32,965 nt of DNA from Bacteroidota bacterium (GTDB taxonomy: Bacteria; Bacteroidota; Ignavibacteria; Palsa-1295), in contig JAJPIQ010000033.1 in the NCBI GenBank assembly GCA_021324685.1, positions 1-32,965 on the forward strand, written 5' to 3'. The position numbers and the translations under genes are program-made. The number at the start of each line of letters is the position of its first letter. Within the stretch, counting starts at the first letter, position 1. Of this stretch, positions 2,261 to 21,942 are shown piece by piece. The notes beneath the pieces are model-generated. The model searched no databases. It was not told the origin of the DNA and saw only the letters and a list, made by a program, of their open reading frames with translations.

Positions 2261-2635
2261 TCAGCGACTTCGCATAGAAGTTTTCTTTTTCTTTGGAGGT
2301 GGATTAGGCCTCAGCAGCGAAGGGGGAACATCAATTGTCATACGCAGCAATGCGGCGGCAAGCGTTTTACCCTGGGCATCGTGCTTGAGGCTGACCGTTC
2401 CACCTCCACCGAGCGTATTATGAAGAAGAAAATTTAGTGCCCACAGGTTCGGAAGTTCGAACCGCTCGACCGGGCCGAAACAGATACCCTTGAAATGCTT
2501 TTTTACTTCGGCGCGGGTAACGCTTTTTCGGATGATCGGATAAAACCGTTCTTCGCGTGCAATAAGCCCAATGTTAGCCGCATCGCCTTTGTCGCCGCTA
2601 CGCGCATGGCAGATTTTGAGAAGCTGTACTTTCAT
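2261..2635 (-). CDS. AtuA C-terminal (ferredoxin-fold) domain protein
   Basis: This small protein of about 124 residues matches the C-terminal domain of the AtuA/DUF1446 family. It has the opening ARSGDKGDAANIG and, further on, ERFELPNLWALNFLLHNTLGGGGT, ending with QGKTLAAALLRM. In AtuA proteins this domain follows a large N-terminal domain and is linked to acyclic terpene or acyl-CoA catabolism; free-standing copies occur. The start chosen is the ATG at 2635, directly before the conserved domain; an upstream in-frame start at 2692 would add 19 residues that do not look conserved. The C terminus is a Pro/Lys-rich tail. It is upstream of the lipoprotein gene on the same strand. No partner enzyme of the pathway is in the window. 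Confidence 0.75.
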   Translation of the reverse strand: MKVQLLKICHARSGDKGDAANIGLIAREERFYPIIRKSVTRAEVKKHFKGICFGPVERFELPNLWALNFLLHNTLGGGGTVSLKHDAQGKTLAAALLRMTIDVPPSLLRPNPPPKKKKTSMRSR

Positions 2636-2732
2636 CGCATGATAAAACAGAGCTTTCACCGGAGCCGTGCCAGCCACACCGGGAGGCGTCAAAGCACAAT
2701 TTCGCCATTTTTTACGGGCCTATATCTGCTTG

Positions 2733-2852
2733 ATGGAAGTACCTAAAATTAATGCACGCATAGAGCTTTCGAACTCCGCTTTTATGAAAAAGAATCTTTC
2801 CTCTTTATTAGATGCAATGAACTGGCAAACCAACAGCCCGGAAGCGAAATAA
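2733..2852 (+). CDS. Possible 39-aa small ORF
   Basis: ATG at 2733 opens a 39-residue frame starting MEVPKINARIEL and ending NSPEAK. It sits in the A+T-rich stretch between the AtuA-domain gene and the XRE gene. A TATATCTG box, one base from the TAnnTTTG consensus, ends 4 bases before the ATG. No family is recognised and there is no clear ribosome-binding site. It may be chance; it is listed because it would be the only coding content of this gap. Confidence 0.2.
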   Translation: MEVPKINARIELSNSAFMKKNLSSLLDAMNWQTNSPEAK

Positions 2853-2863
2853 CGTTCCGAGAG

Positions 2864-2885
2864 TCCGCCAGTCCTAAATGGCGGA
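2864..2885. repeat. Palindrome copy 1, 3' of the XRE gene
   Basis: Perfect 7-bp arms TCCGCCA (2864-2870) and TGGCGGA (2879-2885) flank an 8-base centre; GAGT and AACTC outside them extend the stem with one bulge. The 19-mer 2865-2883 matches the reverse complement of 3166-3184 at 16 of 19 positions, so the two copies face each other across the XRE gene. No T-tract follows on either strand, so this is not a normal terminator. It is 21 bases after the XRE stop codon. Confidence 0.6.
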
Positions 2886-2905
2886 ACTCAACTCTTAAAC
2901 GTTAA

Positions 2906-3127
2906 TTATTTTTTGAAGGCATTCTCGATCAACAGAATGCTCGGTTGAATTCCTAAGGCATCCGCCAATTGACACAAGTTCGATAAGGTGAGGTTCATTT
3001 CGCCACGCTCTACAGCGCCAATATAAGTTCGCTTGAAACCGGATTTCAGGGCAAATTTTTCCTGGGAATACCCCTTGGACTCCCGTAAAAATCGGACATT
3101 CTTTCCTACAGTACGCTGCATATCCAT
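2906..3127 (-). CDS. XRE-family helix-turn-helix regulator, 73 aa
   Basis: This is a single-domain DNA-binding protein of the Cro/CI (XRE) type. The domain fills nearly the whole chain, from VGKNVRFLRESKGYSQEKFALKS through the recognition-helix region FKRTYIGAVERGE to LCQLADALGIQPSILL. The size fits controller proteins and small phage-type repressors. The start chosen is ATG 3127 (MDMQRTV); ATG 3121 is also possible, while an upstream start at 3187 would run through the palindromic site. The gene is divergent from the secreted-protein unit beginning at 3266, with palindrome 3166-3184 and a promoter box between them, the usual layout for an autoregulating repressor. No methylase or nuclease gene is adjacent, so a restriction-modification controller is not supported. 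Confidence 0.8.
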   Translation of the reverse strand: MDMQRTVGKNVRFLRESKGYSQEKFALKSGFKRTYIGAVERGEMNLTLSNLCQLADALGIQPSILLIENAFKK

Positions 3128-3165
3128 GCAGTAATAATGAAGATTAGGACAAAAGTCTGAATTTA

Positions 3166-3184
3166 CGCCATTTAAGGATGGCGG
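3166..3184. promoter_or_regulatory. Palindromic candidate operator (copy 2)
   Basis: Arms CGCCAT (3166-3171) and ATGGCG (3178-3183) are perfect inverted repeats around a 6-base centre. The site lies 12 bases upstream of the TATATTTG box, where bound protein would block RNA polymerase, and 39 bases from the XRE start codon. Binding by the neighbouring XRE protein is inferred from position and symmetry. A second, inverted copy lies at 2864-2885. Confidence 0.55.
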
Positions 3185-3195
3185 CAAAAATGTTG

Positions 3196-3203
3196 TATAT
3201 TTG
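3196..3203 (+). promoter_or_regulatory. Bacteroidota-type -7 box, TATATTTG
   Basis: TATATTTG is an exact match to TAnnTTTG, the Bacteroidota primary sigma -7 element. The upstream box is weak (TTTA around 3171-3174). Transcription would start near 3210 and run into the small secreted ORF at 3266 and the two genes after it. Confidence 0.5.
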
Positions 3204-3265
3204 TGTCGAGTGTCTCACCAAAGAGACTTTTATAACCTATGTGGGTTATTTAAAAGAAAGAAAAT

Positions 3266-3451
3266 ATGCTCAAAGTACGTCCTGTTCGTTGCATGGCTTT
3301 CTTCGCTGTGCCATTGTTTTCAGTAAGCGGTGCCCGAGGACAATCGACCCGTTCTTAGCAGAATAAAGTTTATACAGCCGGTGATATGGATGTATTCAAG
3401 AGCTTCCATAACGCACTTTCCTTTTTGTTTAACCAATCCATTCAGAGGTAA
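3266..3451 (+). pseudogene. Small secreted ORF interrupted by one in-frame TAG
   Basis: ATG 3266 opens a frame encoding a signal-peptide-like start (MLKVRPVRCMAFFAVPLFSV, then SGARGQ) that stops at TAG 3356-3358 after 30 codons. The same frame then stays open for another 30 protein-like codons (QNKVYTAGDMDVFKSFHNAL onward) and ends with tandem TAA TAA directly before the next ATG at 3455. That fit to the next gene suggests a once-continuous 61-codon gene. Purine-rich AAAGAAAGAAAA precedes the ATG. It could be a pseudogene, a sequencing error, a readthrough gene, or two unrelated short frames. No family is recognised. Confidence 0.4.
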
Positions 3452-3454
3452 TAA

Positions 3455-4477
3455 ATGAAACGCCCTAACCACATTCTTGCGAGCATGGCAATCTTATGTT
3501 TGCTCGGAACGGCTTCAACGATTGCAACTGCGCAGCCGACACCGTATTACGGAGCATTGCTGTATAGTATGCATCTTGATACATCCGTACCGCCGGTTTA
3601 TTCGGGACAACCGACCCAAGTCACCGAAGGCTATCTTTGGCTTGATGACGCGATGCGGCTATACCCAGAATATAAAATCGACAGCTTTATGAATACGCTG
3701 ACATGGAGCGATTCGATGAAAACCATTGCCAGTGTCTTCTACCAGGCGCAGGACGATAACCCTCTTTCTTTCTTTTTTTGGTCTGGGTCTGCAATGCACC
3801 CAAATCCTTACAAAGGAAATCCCGGGGAGGGAATAATGGCCTTCAGGCAGAGAGTCGCTCAAATTGTTGGCGATACCGGCAGAACGAGCGCGCTTTTGAC
3901 TGCCGATATTATTTCTGACGTGTATGTAAATGATACGCTCTGCGTCAAGGACCCAACAGCACATATTGCTTTCGATGCTGTTTTTGTAAACTCGACAATC
4001 CTCGACGAAATAAAAGGTAAAAAAGTTCCACTTTGTGTCGAAGAAGGCATGAGAACACACAGAGGGTCGAAAGTAAAACAGGTACAAAACTCCGGGGCGA
4101 TACCCTGGGCGACGTATCCAATTCCTGCGGACTCTGGCGGATGCCTGCAATTTGAATATTCGCCAGAATGGTTACGTGTTCATAGCGATTATGGTCTGCC
4201 ACTGAAAGATTCTAACGGTTGGTGGGTAAAGCCGGGTCATGAGTACATTGTTTTTCTTAATCTCAGCGGAATTGGAGCCGATAGCACCGCCGGATACTTT
4301 ACGGTTATACCCGGACCAGCAAATCCCCCTTTGGGTAGCAGTGGGTGTATGTATCCCGTTGTAAACGGTATTGTTCAAGACCCAAATGATGATTTTGGGT
4401 TAGGCCATGCAAATCTCCCCGTCGCACAATGGAAGGCGGCATTGAGGGCTCGAATTAGCAAAATCGTTAATCCATAA
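3455..4477 (+). CDS. Secreted protein of unknown function, 340 aa
   Basis: A clear Sec signal peptide (MKRPNH, hydrophobic core, cleavage near ATAQ-P) heads a mature protein with no domain I recognise. The mature part has four cysteines and short beta-like segments such as GHEYIVFLNL and AGYFTVIPG. It lacks a type IX sorting domain at its C terminus (ends RISKIVNP), so periplasm or outer surface by another route is more likely. AGAGG lies 7-11 bases before the ATG as a ribosome-binding site. Its stop codon overlaps the Shine-Dalgarno sequence of the metzincin gene 12 bases downstream, so the two are probably translated together and may act together. Base composition is more A+T-rich than the neighbouring housekeeping genes. 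Confidence 0.8.
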   Translation: MKRPNHILASMAILCLLGTASTIATAQPTPYYGALLYSMHLDTSVPPVYSGQPTQVTEGYLWLDDAMRLYPEYKIDSFMNTLTWSDSMKTIASVFYQAQDDNPLSFFFWSGSAMHPNPYKGNPGEGIMAFRQRVAQIVGDTGRTSALLTADIISDVYVNDTLCVKDPTAHIAFDAVFVNSTILDEIKGKKVPLCVEEGMRTHRGSKVKQVQNSGAIPWATYPIPADSGGCLQFEYSPEWLRVHSDYGLPLKDSNGWWVKPGHEYIVFLNLSGIGADSTAGYFTVIPGPANPPLGSSGCMYPVVNGIVQDPNDDFGLGHANLPVAQWKAALRARISKIVNP

Positions 4478-4481
4478 GGAG
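4475..4481 (+). promoter_or_regulatory. Ribosome-binding site overlapping upstream stop
   Basis: TAAGGAG combines the stop codon of the 340-aa gene with a strong Shine-Dalgarno core, 8 bases before ATG 4490. Such sites are uncommon in this window, and the overlap points to translational coupling of the two secreted proteins. Confidence 0.6.
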
Positions 4482-4489
4482 TACGTAAA

Positions 4490-6442
4490 ATGAAAACGCT
4501 TTATTTTATGATCTCCTTTTTAGTTCTCGCACAACTCGGAAGGGCGCAACAGCCATGTGATTCCTGTTGCCAGCAGAGCTTTCCCTACGAGTTCTGCAAT
4601 CCGACCGATGGAAGTATTTTTGTTAGTTGTTCCATAAATCCAAACAGCGATACTTTAAACGGGGCACCCGTAAAAGCATTTATTCCGAGCTGCGTAATCG
4701 TCGATCCTATGCCAGATTATGCGATCTGGCAGCCAACGGGACCTCCGCCGAAAGCCGGGAGCCTTCTTAGCAACGATGCTCTGAATAACGATCCCAATGA
4801 AGAAACGGGAGCGCAGGCACAGCAATCGAGCGACGAGACGTTGTTCGACCAGATTCCGAGCCAACCGCCCGTCGATCCGAGCACCGAACCGGGACTTTAC
4901 CCTGTCACAACGGATCCAGGTCCAATGCCTTCGTGCGGCGACAGCGCGCCGTATCCCGACCCGCAGGCTCCGGATCGTCAGGCAATTTGGGATCGATATG
5001 TCAATTCTCGTTACAGCGAGTATGGATTAAACTATATAGTTCCACCCTGGATTCATCCCTACGATTACCAATGGCAAAACGAGTGGGATGACGATGAAGA
5101 CGAGTATCAGGCTGCGCTCGATCAATTCGAATTAGATAGTACCAATTTCCTAAACGGCCTCGACCAGGAAAAGACCAATGAAAGCGGGATGGACGACAAT
5201 TCCAAAAATGCCGTCGTATGGTACTATAACACCGATGCCGGTTGGCTATGGGAGGAATACGATAATGAGCTAACCAAGTATGACACAGAAGTGGAAGCCG
5301 ATAGTGCTTACACCGCGTGCCTCGCAGCTCTTACGAACGATATTAGTCAATGGCGTCAGGACACTACGGATTATGCGAAATACTTAGGTGCCGAAGCCCA
5401 GTACCAGTCCGATTTAACGGCTTGGAATAACGCTGCTAATTCCTACACTCAGGTCTTCAATCAGGACCAGGCTCAGGCCGATGCCGATTCAGCCCTGAGC
5501 CAGTGGCTCGATCAATGCACACCTCCGATCAAGCCATGCGAGGGACCACGGTGCTGTATTCATGTAGTAATGGACAATTCTATTCGTGATTTTCAGAGCG
5601 ATCCAAGTGGTATTGATGCTGAAACGATGGGAAGTAGTCCAAGCACGTTCTTAACTTGTCATCCGAAGGAATGCGAAAGTAATAGCGTAATCGAGGTCAA
5701 CGTTACGCAACAGCGACTACAAAATGAACTTGAGCTCGGCATCTCTGTCGATCCAACTCAATACACATTGCATACGGTCAATCGGCTGGGGTTTTATACT
5801 GCACTCGATGAAGGACCGAATACCGTTGATGGTTACGATAACATCAGCTTCTTCCAGTTGATGGAGCACGAAATTGGGCACTATCTTGGCCTTCATCATC
5901 CTGACGAATCGGTTAAAAGTTCAAAATGCAATAATTGCTATACTGCGAATCCGTTTTGGGTTTCATCGGGAGGGCCGAATGGAACTGTTAATCCCGCAGG
6001 TTACCGGACCGTGATGGCTGAAAATAATAACATTGGAGTGCCGGGGGTGCCACCTCATTATCCGCTCGGTTTGACCAGCGAAGATCAATGTCAATTCCAA
6101 AAACTATACTGTAATTCGTGCGGAGGTGGAAGCGGCACACCGCCCTGCGCTTATGACGCTGGAATTTTCGTTCCTTCGCAAAGCGAGTTCGAAGCCGAAG
6201 TACATCCAAATCCCTCCACAGGGGCAACAGAGTTGGATTATTCAGTTCCTGAACGAACGTTCGTTCAAATCGCAATTTACGATATGCTCGGAAAACAAAT
6301 CTTGCAGGTGTATTCAGGCTATCGCAATGTTGGAGTGCAGGTCATATCCCTCGGCACTGAGAATCTTGCAAGCGGTAATTATGTCTGTCGAGTCCGCGAG
6401 GGCGATCGTGTCAGTTATATAAACCTGGTAATCCAGAAATAA
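4490..6442 (+). CDS. Secreted metzincin-type metalloprotease with type IX sorting domain
   Basis: This 650-residue protein has a signal peptide (MKTLYFMISFLVLAQLGRAQ) followed by a Cys-rich segment (CDSCCQQ and later cysteines). Next is a long region rich in Asp, Gln, Trp and Tyr (about residues 165-345). The zinc site HEIGHYLGLHH is at residues 460-470, matching HExxHxxGxxH with His460, His464 and His470 as ligands and Glu461 as the catalytic base; Met509 (TVMAEN) is a likely Met-turn. The last 79 residues (from HPNPSTG, residue 572) form a type A type IX sorting domain ending NLVIQK. It should therefore be exported by Sec, cross the outer membrane by the type IX system and be attached or released by PorU. 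The substrate is unknown. It is the last gene before the terminator at 6465. Confidence 0.88.
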   Translation: MKTLYFMISFLVLAQLGRAQQPCDSCCQQSFPYEFCNPTDGSIFVSCSINPNSDTLNGAPVKAFIPSCVIVDPMPDYAIWQPTGPPPKAGSLLSNDALNNDPNEETGAQAQQSSDETLFDQIPSQPPVDPSTEPGLYPVTTDPGPMPSCGDSAPYPDPQAPDRQAIWDRYVNSRYSEYGLNYIVPPWIHPYDYQWQNEWDDDEDEYQAALDQFELDSTNFLNGLDQEKTNESGMDDNSKNAVVWYYNTDAGWLWEEYDNELTKYDTEVEADSAYTACLAALTNDISQWRQDTTDYAKYLGAEAQYQSDLTAWNNAANSYTQVFNQDQAQADADSALSQWLDQCTPPIKPCEGPRCCIHVVMDNSIRDFQSDPSGIDAETMGSSPSTFLTCHPKECESNSVIEVNVTQQRLQNELELGISVDPTQYTLHTVNRLGFYTALDEGPNTVDGYDNISFFQLMEHEIGHYLGLHHPDESVKSSKCNNCYTANPFWVSSGGPNGTVNPAGYRTVMAENNNIGVPGVPPHYPLGLTSEDQCQFQKLYCNSCGGGSGTPPCAYDAGIFVPSQSEFEAEVHPNPSTGATELDYSVPERTFVQIAIYDMLGKQILQVYSGYRNVGVQVISLGTENLASGNYVCRVREGDRVSYINLVIQK

Positions 6443-6464
6443 ACCATAATTTCTCAGAGAACAT

Positions 6465-6493
6465 AGAGCCGGGATTAAACCGGCTCTTTTTAT
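6465..6493 (+). terminator. Intrinsic terminator of the metzincin unit
   Basis: Perfect 8-bp arms AGAGCCGG (6465-6472) and CCGGCTCT (6480-6487) around a 7-base loop are followed by a T-rich tract. It begins 23 bases after the metzincin stop and closes the transcription unit that starts near 3210. Confidence 0.9.
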
Positions 6494-6850
6494 TTCTTCT
6501 GATTATTTTTGAAGAATGAAGGAACTATTTTGACGTAAAATTTGTATTACATTTTCGGAAAATTTTTAAATCAGTTGTCCCAACAAATATTTTGTATCAA
6601 AATTCATGAAAATAGGATGCGAGTTCATGAAAACTCTTCCAACACACAAAATTTTTCCTTTCTTCGGGCAAGCTAAAGTCCGATCGAATATTACGAGCAG
6701 CTTCTGAAAGCCTTCACCTACTGCCTGCGGTCCGGGCTGAGTTGAGAGAAGTGGGTAGGGTTGGCTTTGTAGGATATTTCACGGTCTGTCAGAGAAGAGT
6801 GACTTTCTTCGATCATGGCGAACAACCCAAATTAAGTTCGATTACAACAT
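6494..6850. other. Non-coding gap after the terminator
   Basis: No convincing gene was found here; frames are short and broken, the longest notable one being about 26 codons from ATG 6628. A TATTTTTG box (6504-6511) matches the -7 consensus, but no transcript is evident after it. Two TTCATGAAAA direct repeats start at 6603 and 6624. The left half is strongly A+T-rich; toward 6700-6800 composition returns to that of the neighbouring genes, which might reflect decayed coding sequence. Confidence 0.5.
6603..6633. repeat. Pair of TTCATGAAAA direct repeats
   Basis: TTCATGAAAA occurs at 6603-6612 and 6624-6633, 21 bases apart, close to two helical turns. TTCATGAA is itself a palindrome. The spacing would suit a dimer-pair binding site, but no regulator or target is evident; in A+T-rich DNA it could be chance. 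Confidence 0.3.
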
Positions 6851-7192
6851 CTATTTTTTAATTGCCGTAATATTCGTCACTCGGTAATTCCCTTGGCCAA
6901 GGTCCTGGAGTGTAAAGTGCACGGAGTCGCCTACGGCAATCGTGCGAAGCGATGCAGGGTCCGCGACGGGATATTGCATTGTCATGGCGTCCATCACTCC
7001 CGGGACCGTATTATGCTCGATCGTCACGGTTTTACCGGTCGTATCGACCGCTCGAACCAAGCCTTTTCCGTCGCCCTGCTTCATGACGACAAGAGCAGTA
7101 TCGGCGCTGGGTTGCGCTGTTTCATTTTTCGAACAGGCCAACAGAAGGGTCGATGCAAAGAACAGACAGCAGAGAGATTTCCAGGTGGTCAT
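6851..7192 (-). CDS. CusF-like copper-binding lipoprotein
   Basis: The 113-residue protein has a lipobox LLLAC with Cys20, then a CusF/PF11604-type domain: GLVRAVDTTGKTVTIEH, VPGVMDAMTMQYPVADP and VGDSVHFTL. In E. coli CusF, a periplasmic Cu(I)/Ag(I) chaperone, metal is held by a His and two Met; the equivalents here are probably His60, Met70 and Met72. The tryptophan that caps the CusF metal site is not at the usual place (VMDAMTM). The protein is probably anchored in the outer membrane or facing the periplasm. It starts 6 bases after the stop of the barrel gene on the same strand, so the two are probably cotranscribed. No CusABC pump gene is in the window. Confidence 0.75.
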   Translation of the reverse strand: MTTWKSLCCLFFASTLLLACSKNETAQPSADTALVVMKQGDGKGLVRAVDTTGKTVTIEHNTVPGVMDAMTMQYPVADPASLRTIAVGDSVHFTLQDLGQGNYRVTNITAIKK

Positions 7193-20850: not shown

Positions 20851-21885
20851 TTATTGTTTTAGGAGCTTTCCACTGCGGTTCCACTCCGAACCGCGCAGCG
20901 CATAGAAATAGGTGCCCGGCTGTAAGATGTGCGTATCGATGAGAAATTCGCGAATGCCCGGATCGAAATTTTCTTCACGAGAATAGACCTCCGTTCCTGT
21001 AATATCGTAAAGTGTGACTTTCACGCTTTCCGGCCTCACTAATGTAAATCCGATCCCAAGTTGATTCTGGAATGGGTCTGGAAGAGCATAGCTCAAGTCG
21101 GATGTGCTCTCAGAGACAGCCAGTGGGGCGTCCCAATGGACCGGCAATGCATAGCTAATTGTGGAGTCGATATTCCCATGTTGCATGCGGACAGAAAAAA
21201 TGACGGTGTCGAAACTCAAATAATTCGGCGAAGAAAAAATTAGATCGAGCGGATGCTTGCGAACAAAGGGCAGTTCAATATATTGATTGATGGGAATTGT
21301 GCTATCGAAGACCTGCAGCGAACAGGATGCGCCGTTTATAGGCTTTGCGGAAAAATTCGAGAAGATGGTAGTATCGGAGATCGGATTGTCGAACGTGGGA
21401 GCGGAATGATTCGTCCACACTTTGCCGAGGGAATCGGGAAGCAATGTGATCGACCAACCAAACCTCCCGGATCTATCTAAAGGGAGTGGCCTAATTTTCG
21501 GGAAGGAATCGTCAAGACCGAACCCATTCATTGTAATTGGATATACGTTCTGAGCACATCCATGGATCGGGCTGCCCATCAGATACATTGAAAACGGCGT
21601 ACTTGATGGTCCAACTTTTAGAGGTAAAAAGTATGTGTTTGCAACCCATGGTTCGGTACTGAAAACCTCGAATTCCATAAATGGATTGAAACCCCAACCA
21701 AGACTGAAAGAATATTCACATCCGTTTTCTGGCCCTGGTGGAGTAAGTAAGTACGTCCCTATTAAAGCTGTATCTCCTATTGCAATCGAATCCGAATAGG
21801 TTACTGATTGGAGGGATTGGGAGAACGCATCACTCCACGATATGATTAGTACCATCCAAAAGGCTAGGAATGCCATTTTGACCAT
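20851..21885 (-). CDS. Secreted protein with type IX sorting domain, ~344 aa
   Basis: A signal peptide (MAFLAFWMVLIISWSDAFSQ) is followed by a beta-rich mature region of unknown function. The C terminus is a type A type IX sorting domain (LPDPFQNQLGIGFTLVRPESVKVTLYDITGTEVY, ending FYALRGSEWNRSGKLLKQ), so it should be exported through PorV/PorU to the cell surface. ATG 21885 is used; ATG 21876 also works. A longer frame opening at 21924 would run through the predicted promoter. It is convergent with fabI, 6 bases apart. Its codon use looks more A+T-rich than the neighbouring rpsA. Confidence 0.75.
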   Translation of the reverse strand: MVKMAFLAFWMVLIISWSDAFSQSLQSVTYSDSIAIGDTALIGTYLLTPPGPENGCEYSFSLGWGFNPFMEFEVFSTEPWVANTYFLPLKVGPSSTPFSMYLMGSPIHGCAQNVYPITMNGFGLDDSFPKIRPLPLDRSGRFGWSITLLPDSLGKVWTNHSAPTFDNPISDTTIFSNFSAKPINGASCSLQVFDSTIPINQYIELPFVRKHPLDLIFSSPNYLSFDTVIFSVRMQHGNIDSTISYALPVHWDAPLAVSESTSDLSYALPDPFQNQLGIGFTLVRPESVKVTLYDITGTEVYSREENFDPGIREFLIDTHILQPGTYFYALRGSEWNRSGKLLKQ

Positions 21886-21889
21886 CCAA

Positions 21890-21918
21890 CAATATAAGAA
21901 ATTTTTTCGAGATATCAA
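21890..21918 (-). promoter_or_regulatory. Candidate promoter of the type IX cargo gene
   Basis: Read on the minus strand: TTG (21918-21916), 19 bases, then TATATTG (21896-21890). The spacing suits a Bacteroidota promoter, though the -7 box is imperfect. Transcription would begin near 21884, giving a very short leader or none. Confidence 0.4.
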
Positions 21919-21942
21919 GGTCACAAATCAATCCCTAAAGAA

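Follow-up and report, generated by a model that had tools for sequence, protein, structure and literature searches.

The window analyzed here is the whole of a 32,965-nt stretch of DNA from a Bacteroidota bacterium of the Ignavibacteria (Palsa-1295), i.e., positions 1 to 32,965 of contig JAJPIQ010000033.1 (assembly GCA_021324685.1), read on the forward strand. Positions 2,864 to 6,493 hold a compact unit composed, in this order, of a gene for a 73-aa XRE regulator (on the minus strand), a palindrome, a promoter, a small open reading frame (ORF), a gene for a 340-aa secreted protein (S340), a gene for a predicted metzincin that carries a sorting domain of the type IX secretion system (T9SS) (MET), and a terminator. 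A preliminary description, made from the sequence alone, had listed these same elements as a regulated unit producing a secreted protease; all of them were present, and such a unit was supported. The features are located as follows:

2866-2883 (no strand): near-copy of the palindrome, CGCCAGTCCTAAATGGCG, directly 3′ of the XRE stop, with one mismatch to the upstream pattern
2906-3127 (minus): XRE regulator of 73 aa, a DNA-binding domain only (HTH_3, E 2.5e-13)
3166-3183 (no strand): operator-like palindrome CGCCAT-TTAAGG-ATGGCG, an exact match to CGCCAT-N6-ATGGCG
3196-3203 (plus): putative Bacteroidota-type -7 box TATATTTG (TAnnTTTG) of the S340/MET operon, recognized by sequence
3266-3358 (plus): 30-codon ORF, a signal peptide only, which aligns with the S340 gene start in locus L011
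3455-4477 (plus): S340, a 340-aa Sec-exported protein with a signal peptide, of a family present in 55/391 genomes of the class
4490-6442 (plus): MET, a 650-aa matrixin-like metzincin with a T9SS sorting domain (HExxHxxGxxH; Por_Secre_tail, 1.6e-7)
6465-6487 (plus): intrinsic terminator, recognized by sequence, an 8-bp stem (6 G-C pairs) followed by a T tail

The MET start lies 12 nt past the S340 stop, and this gap is often of 3-15 nt in the genus relatives. The palindrome at 3166-3183 is centred ~21 nt 5′ of the TAnnTTTG box, that is, over the expected -33 region, and the TATATTTG box is 68 nt from the XRE start. When up to one mismatch was allowed, the palindrome pattern occurred at 2 sites in the window, against 0.15 expected. 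The support from shuffles of its own intergenic region was modest (p 0.08), so that this palindrome owes its weight to the second copy past the XRE stop and to the comparison with other cassettes (see below). The repeat at 2866-2883 is a possible second operator, or it could instead be the stem of a terminator of the XRE gene. An Rfam scan of positions 2600-6900 gave no match. The 30-codon ORF, which had been described as a small secreted ORF, does exist and does carry a signal peptide, but it can be aligned, leader and coding start alike, with the beginning of an S340 gene at L011, and is best read as the remnant of a truncated S340 copy; a role as a signalling peptide was dropped in view of this alignment. 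L011 (5616-10470 of G000:C1) is a second locus of the same genome, where three S340 genes are accompanied by a single divergent XRE and a single MET.

S340 and MET appear to be an old conserved gene pair, which forms a layer separate from the XRE. S340 relatives were found in 13/100 genomes in a first search and, by profile, in 55/391 genomes of the class; when the closer S340 set was used as a profile against genome contigs, 11 loci were obtained. Homologues in the searched genus relatives show 52-58% identity. Among the 66 S340 copies of the fetched loci, 36 directly adjoined a gene for an HExxH-type protease: an HExxHxxG gene was directly downstream and on the same strand in 26, the partner was downstream but detected by profile only in 5 more, and it was directly upstream in 5. 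The remaining copies were in tandem with another S340 (5), at contig ends (4) or without such a neighbour (21). HExxHxxG genes made up 35/500 of the other genes at the same loci, and most of them were those same partners. The preliminary description had suggested checking whether the genes of the unit stay together; these two do so across the class.

MET carries the active-site motif HEIGHYLGLHH at residues 460-470 and a C-terminal T9SS sorting domain at ~562-650. The best catalytic matches of the MET family profile in the PDB were matrix metalloproteases (MMPs), with matrilysin at 1e-7 and MMP-1 at 1.8e-7. An M10 match was observed in 20/25 family members, whereas the MET of the window, taken alone, fell below the Pfam cut-off for M10 (19.4 vs 24 bits); PHROGs gave no match for it. 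The family shows the motif HExxHxxGxx(H/D/P) and a Met-turn region, and a T9SS tail was present in 19/25 METs. The fold of the C-terminal domain matched the sorting domains of mirolase (Z 10.7), PorU and NucA. Among the matches listed in a structure search with the whole MET model there were such sorting domains and no metzincin chain; given the poor model of the catalytic part, this is not taken to mean that a metzincin fold is lacking. On these sequence comparisons, MET appears to be a matrixin-like, collagenase-like secreted protease and a T9SS cargo. In the METs of L013, L016, L017, L015, L018 and L024, some of them XRE-linked, the third His of HExxHxxGxxH is replaced, mostly by Asp.

S340 had no match in Pfam, NCBIfam or PHROG, so that by sequence its earlier description as a protein of unknown family stands, but its predicted fold can be assigned. 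A T9SS sorting tail was sought in the S340 proteins and found in none, and S340 shows no lipobox. The AlphaFold2 model (built from 21 sequences) was of moderate confidence, with a mean predicted local distance difference test (pLDDT) of 76.6 and a predicted template modelling score of 0.78, and consists of an alpha-helical N-domain (~54-149) followed by a beta-rich domain with a closing helix (~140-340). In a structure search with this model, agrin NtA was at the top (Z 9.8, root-mean-square deviation 2.8 over 118 residues), and the next matches were N-TIMP-3 (Z 7.8), the NTR domain of PCOLCE (Z 7.5), and then complement NTR domains, TIMP-1 and TIMP-2. Foldseek alone placed TIMP-2 first, with a non-significant E-value of 0.16. 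Residues ~140-340 of S340 are therefore likely, at moderate confidence, to adopt an NTR/TIMP fold. In animals, the TIMPs are the natural inhibitors of matrixins (MMPs), and they chelate the protease zinc via their N-terminal Cys. S340 resembles the animal TIMP/NTR proteins (TIMP-1 to -3, agrin NtA, PCOLCE) in the predicted fold and in having a matrixin-like partner, but it differs from them in that it shows no detectable sequence relation, its NTR-like domain is internal, the N-terminal Cys is absent, and an extra helical domain is present. Since it is without that Cys, S340 is not a TIMP by the zinc-chelating residue.

The presence of a TIMP-fold partner beside a matrixin-like protease suggests that MET is restrained by it, and S340 is probably an inhibitor of MET, as far as the model goes. 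The procollagen C-proteinase enhancer also contains an NTR domain, and S340 could likewise be a chaperone, a folding aid or an activity enhancer of MET; its gene lies upstream and is translated first, and the internal position of its NTR domain is one also found in enhancer and scaffold proteins. We consider this unlikely: several loci have two or three S340 genes per MET (L011, L090) or S340 alone, an arrangement that suits an inhibitor or immunity protein at least equally.

The combination found here, for which the preliminary description knew of no described system, does have a precedent. In Listeria, a conserved locus encodes two XREs, the secreted metzincin Mtz and the TIMP-like lipoprotein Tim; the XREs form a CI/Cro switch, Mtz cleaves Tim, and joint expression of the two sensitises cells to lysis (Boichis et al. 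2021, PMC8235301). In other Firmicutes, related metzincin/TIMP-like pairs lie close to mobile elements, and according to the authors TIMP-like structures had not been recorded in bacteria before (PMC8235301). This mtz-tim locus is the closest described system, in that a secreted metzincin lies beside a secreted protein of TIMP fold, both under XRE control (fold and control being predicted here), and the same HExxHxxGxxH/D range of motifs is seen. Unlike Listeria, in which two XREs repress each other, the window locus has one divergent 73-aa XRE and hence one gene where a CI/Cro double switch takes two. In addition, the metzincin comes first and Tim is a lipoprotein in Listeria, whereas here S340 comes first and MET would be exported by the T9SS; S340 is also longer than Tim, with a helical N-domain, and the likeness between the two rests on the predicted fold. 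The Listeria locus has phage and mobile-element links, while the regulator type found here is common to many unrelated secreted genes. No metzincin ORF was found in the read regions of the Listeria phages A118, A500, PSA and A006.

The Listeria case offers another explanation, namely that S340 is a substrate of MET, and that the TIMP-like fragment released from it, with or without MET, targets the envelope of the producing cell or of neighbouring cells. Mtz cuts Tim near residue 50 and the phenotypes require active Mtz (PMC8235301), and in the model the N-terminal region of S340 that precedes the NTR-like domain could be removed in the same manner. We hold this to be improbable: Tim is a lipoprotein of a Gram-positive cell, whereas S340 is without a lipobox, the cell is of the Gram-negative type, and MET would leave it by the T9SS.

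In order to place the regulator, the neighbourhoods of 69 XRE matches, ranked by similarity and not picked by neighbour, were surveyed. All of them came from one family; the genomes are draft or metagenome-assembled, the choice of ORFs was mechanical, the signal-peptide calls followed a simple, crude rule, and the operator calls rest on comparison with shuffles. The XRE type of the window is numerous in this family, as regulators of ~70-90 aa with many paralogues per genome. Among those with a readable neighbour, the XRE was divergent from its upstream neighbour in 62/66 (background 196/515, P 1e-21), and a signal peptide was called in 50/62 of the divergent neighbours (background 209/572, P 1.5e-12). 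The cassettes adjoined genes other than S340/MET in 57/66 of those examined, and S340 was mostly found without the XRE, so that the single dedicated three-gene system proposed at first does not hold. The neighbours belong to at least six unrelated families, namely S340, the adhesin-like 'SYQG' family, BNR/YCF48 proteins that carry T9SS tails, subtilases, FG-GAP proteins, and a further family with no match in Pfam.

Upstream inverted repeats stood above shuffles (p<0.05) in 19/51 cassettes, and most of the significant ones were centred 15-31 nt before TAnnTTTG, a position shared by the palindrome of the window. The XRE start was ~68-73 nt from the TAnnTTTG box in many cassettes. A second copy of the upstream sequence after the XRE stop was detected (p<0.05) in 11/70 cassettes; it was strongest in L113 (22/24 nt) and weaker in L013, L019 and L016, and the window has such a copy too. 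From cassette to cassette, the palindrome close to the promoter of the neighbour varies. L126 and L119, which have like XREs, carry an identical palindrome, TCACACTATGAGTGTGA, next to non-homologous secreted neighbours; conversely, homologous secreted genes (40-67% identity) are accompanied by XREs with different recognition helices. The palindrome first picked for L009 is probably not its operator, and L009 and L123, again with like XREs, share TGACGCAAATAGACATCAAA instead. On a tree of the 69 XREs, the BNR, SYQG and fam5 labels were no more clustered than shuffled labels, i.e., three of the four target families needed no fewer changes. Since the tree is largely uncoupled from the target family, and since like XREs share a palindrome despite unrelated neighbours, the simplest reading is that the XRE and its operator were exchanged together between secreted genes. 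Short autoregulatory XREs are known as phage Cro and as the controller proteins of restriction-modification systems; these are also of ~70-80 aa, consist of a DNA-binding domain only and have palindromes in the intergenic promoter region. The XREs analyzed here differ from them in occurring as numerous paralogues per genome, almost every one of which is divergent from a different gene, in most cases one for a secreted protein. No paper was found that links XRE regulators to both type IX secretion and divergently oriented genes. It is conceivable, though somewhat doubtful, that throughout the family orthogonal, exchangeable and expanding XRE/operator switches, one per secreted or T9SS gene, vary the exoprotein repertoire, a TIMP-like inhibitor/matrixin pair in a Gram-negative-type cell included.

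Further observations were made on these cassettes. The 5′ leaders of many XRE-linked secreted genes (L169, L164, L153, L129, L125, L165, L117, L161 and others) share the sequence GTAAC...GTTATT and often also a hairpin just past the expected transcription start; an automatic consensus fold of these leaders found no common RNA structure. Many cassettes lie near contig ends (L115, L117, L125, L129, L132 and others), which suggests that repeated sequence alongside them breaks the assemblies. The A+T-rich stretch at 6501-6800, 3′ of the terminator of the window, recurs in the same genome on G000:C4 (96% over 198 nt), C20 (91% over 159 nt) and C86 (78%). The C20 copy is directly upstream of another XRE cassette, L123, and the stretch may represent either a dispersed repeat or what is left of the leader of another cassette.

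The base composition of the unit bears on its origin. The G+C content is 0.441 for the XRE, 0.474 for S340 and 0.486 for MET, against 0.51-0.58 in most flanking genes, and for the whole module it is 0.471 against 0.547 in the flanks, which agrees with the A+T-rich block described at first. This low G+C, together with the patchy spread (55/391 genomes), could point to the lateral acquisition of a module for attack, defence or feeding that has a dedicated regulator. We consider this reading very unlikely: the XRE type is in use at many other secreted genes, homologues are found in other searched members of the genus and elsewhere in the class, and modules across the genus show the same shift in composition. 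On average the 11 S340/MET modules of the genus are 6.7 points below their own flanks, so that low G+C is rather a trait of the S340/MET genes, and with genus homologues at 52-58% identity a recent lateral gain is not needed. A 357-aa gene with a G+C of 0.455 was also noted at 20851-21924, within a region of 55% G+C.

The unit thus appears to consist of two layers, the S340-MET pair and the XRE cassette, and not of one system. In the best explanation, to which we assign a probability of about 0.5, an exchangeable, self-regulating XRE repressor cassette lies before a conserved S340-MET pair, and S340 restrains MET in the periplasm. Since the palindrome covers the expected -33 region, we take the XRE to be a repressor that acts locally and limits itself. 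It would bind 3166-3183, and perhaps 2866-2883 too, so that it would block the S340/MET promoter at -33 and curb its own expression; each secreted product would in this way possess a separate switch with a DNA address of its own. Once the switch is open, one mRNA would be made, from which S340 and then MET are translated. MET would cross the outer membrane via type IX secretion and act outside as a matrixin-like protease. Given the order S340-then-MET, the Sec signal of S340 without a T9SS tail, and the tail of MET, S340 is expected in the periplasm and would meet MET there. It would remain there, bind MET in transit and restrain it, so that the producer is protected, as by AprI in Pseudomonas. 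AprI is the periplasmic inhibitor of AprA, the Pseudomonas alkaline protease. The proposed logic is the same, an exported metzincin and a periplasmic protein from one locus; export is by type I secretion for AprA and would be by the T9SS for MET. AprI is of a fold other than the TIMP-like one (PMC8235301).

Several points weigh against this explanation. None of the Foldseek E-values for S340 reaches significance (0.16 at best), confidence in the model is only moderate (mean pLDDT 76.6) and its loop 197-227 has a pLDDT under 50; a common fold alone proves no function. Cys is absent both from the mature N-terminus of S340 and from the start of the NTR-like domain, which is internal. Of the S340 copies, 21/66, mostly remote family members, lack an adjoining metzincin, and the catalytic domain of MET is poorly modelled (mean pLDDT 63.7 for the model overall). 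For the regulator, repression rather than activation is suggested by position alone; the operator calls come from shuffles, and many cassettes, taken singly, do not reach significance. The S340 label was somewhat clustered on the XRE tree (4/500 shuffles as low, with at least 3 changes needed), and the uncoupling of XRE and target seems incomplete. The inhibitory step is the least certain part of the mechanism: S340 may act in a TIMP-like way by another route, be cleaved like Tim, or assist MET.

The composition of the unit therefore has a precedent, and it differs from that of Listeria in lineage, gene order, export route, partner architecture and regulator type. TIMPs are known chiefly from animals, and a second bacterial lineage with a TIMP-fold and matrixin-like pair suggests that this pairing is general; S340-MET would be its Gram-negative-type, T9SS-linked and testable version. 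The XRE cassettes, in turn, provide a naturally occurring collection of short repressors that appear to be orthogonal and come with candidate operators; they lead to the testable question of whether each secreted protein is switched on and off separately.

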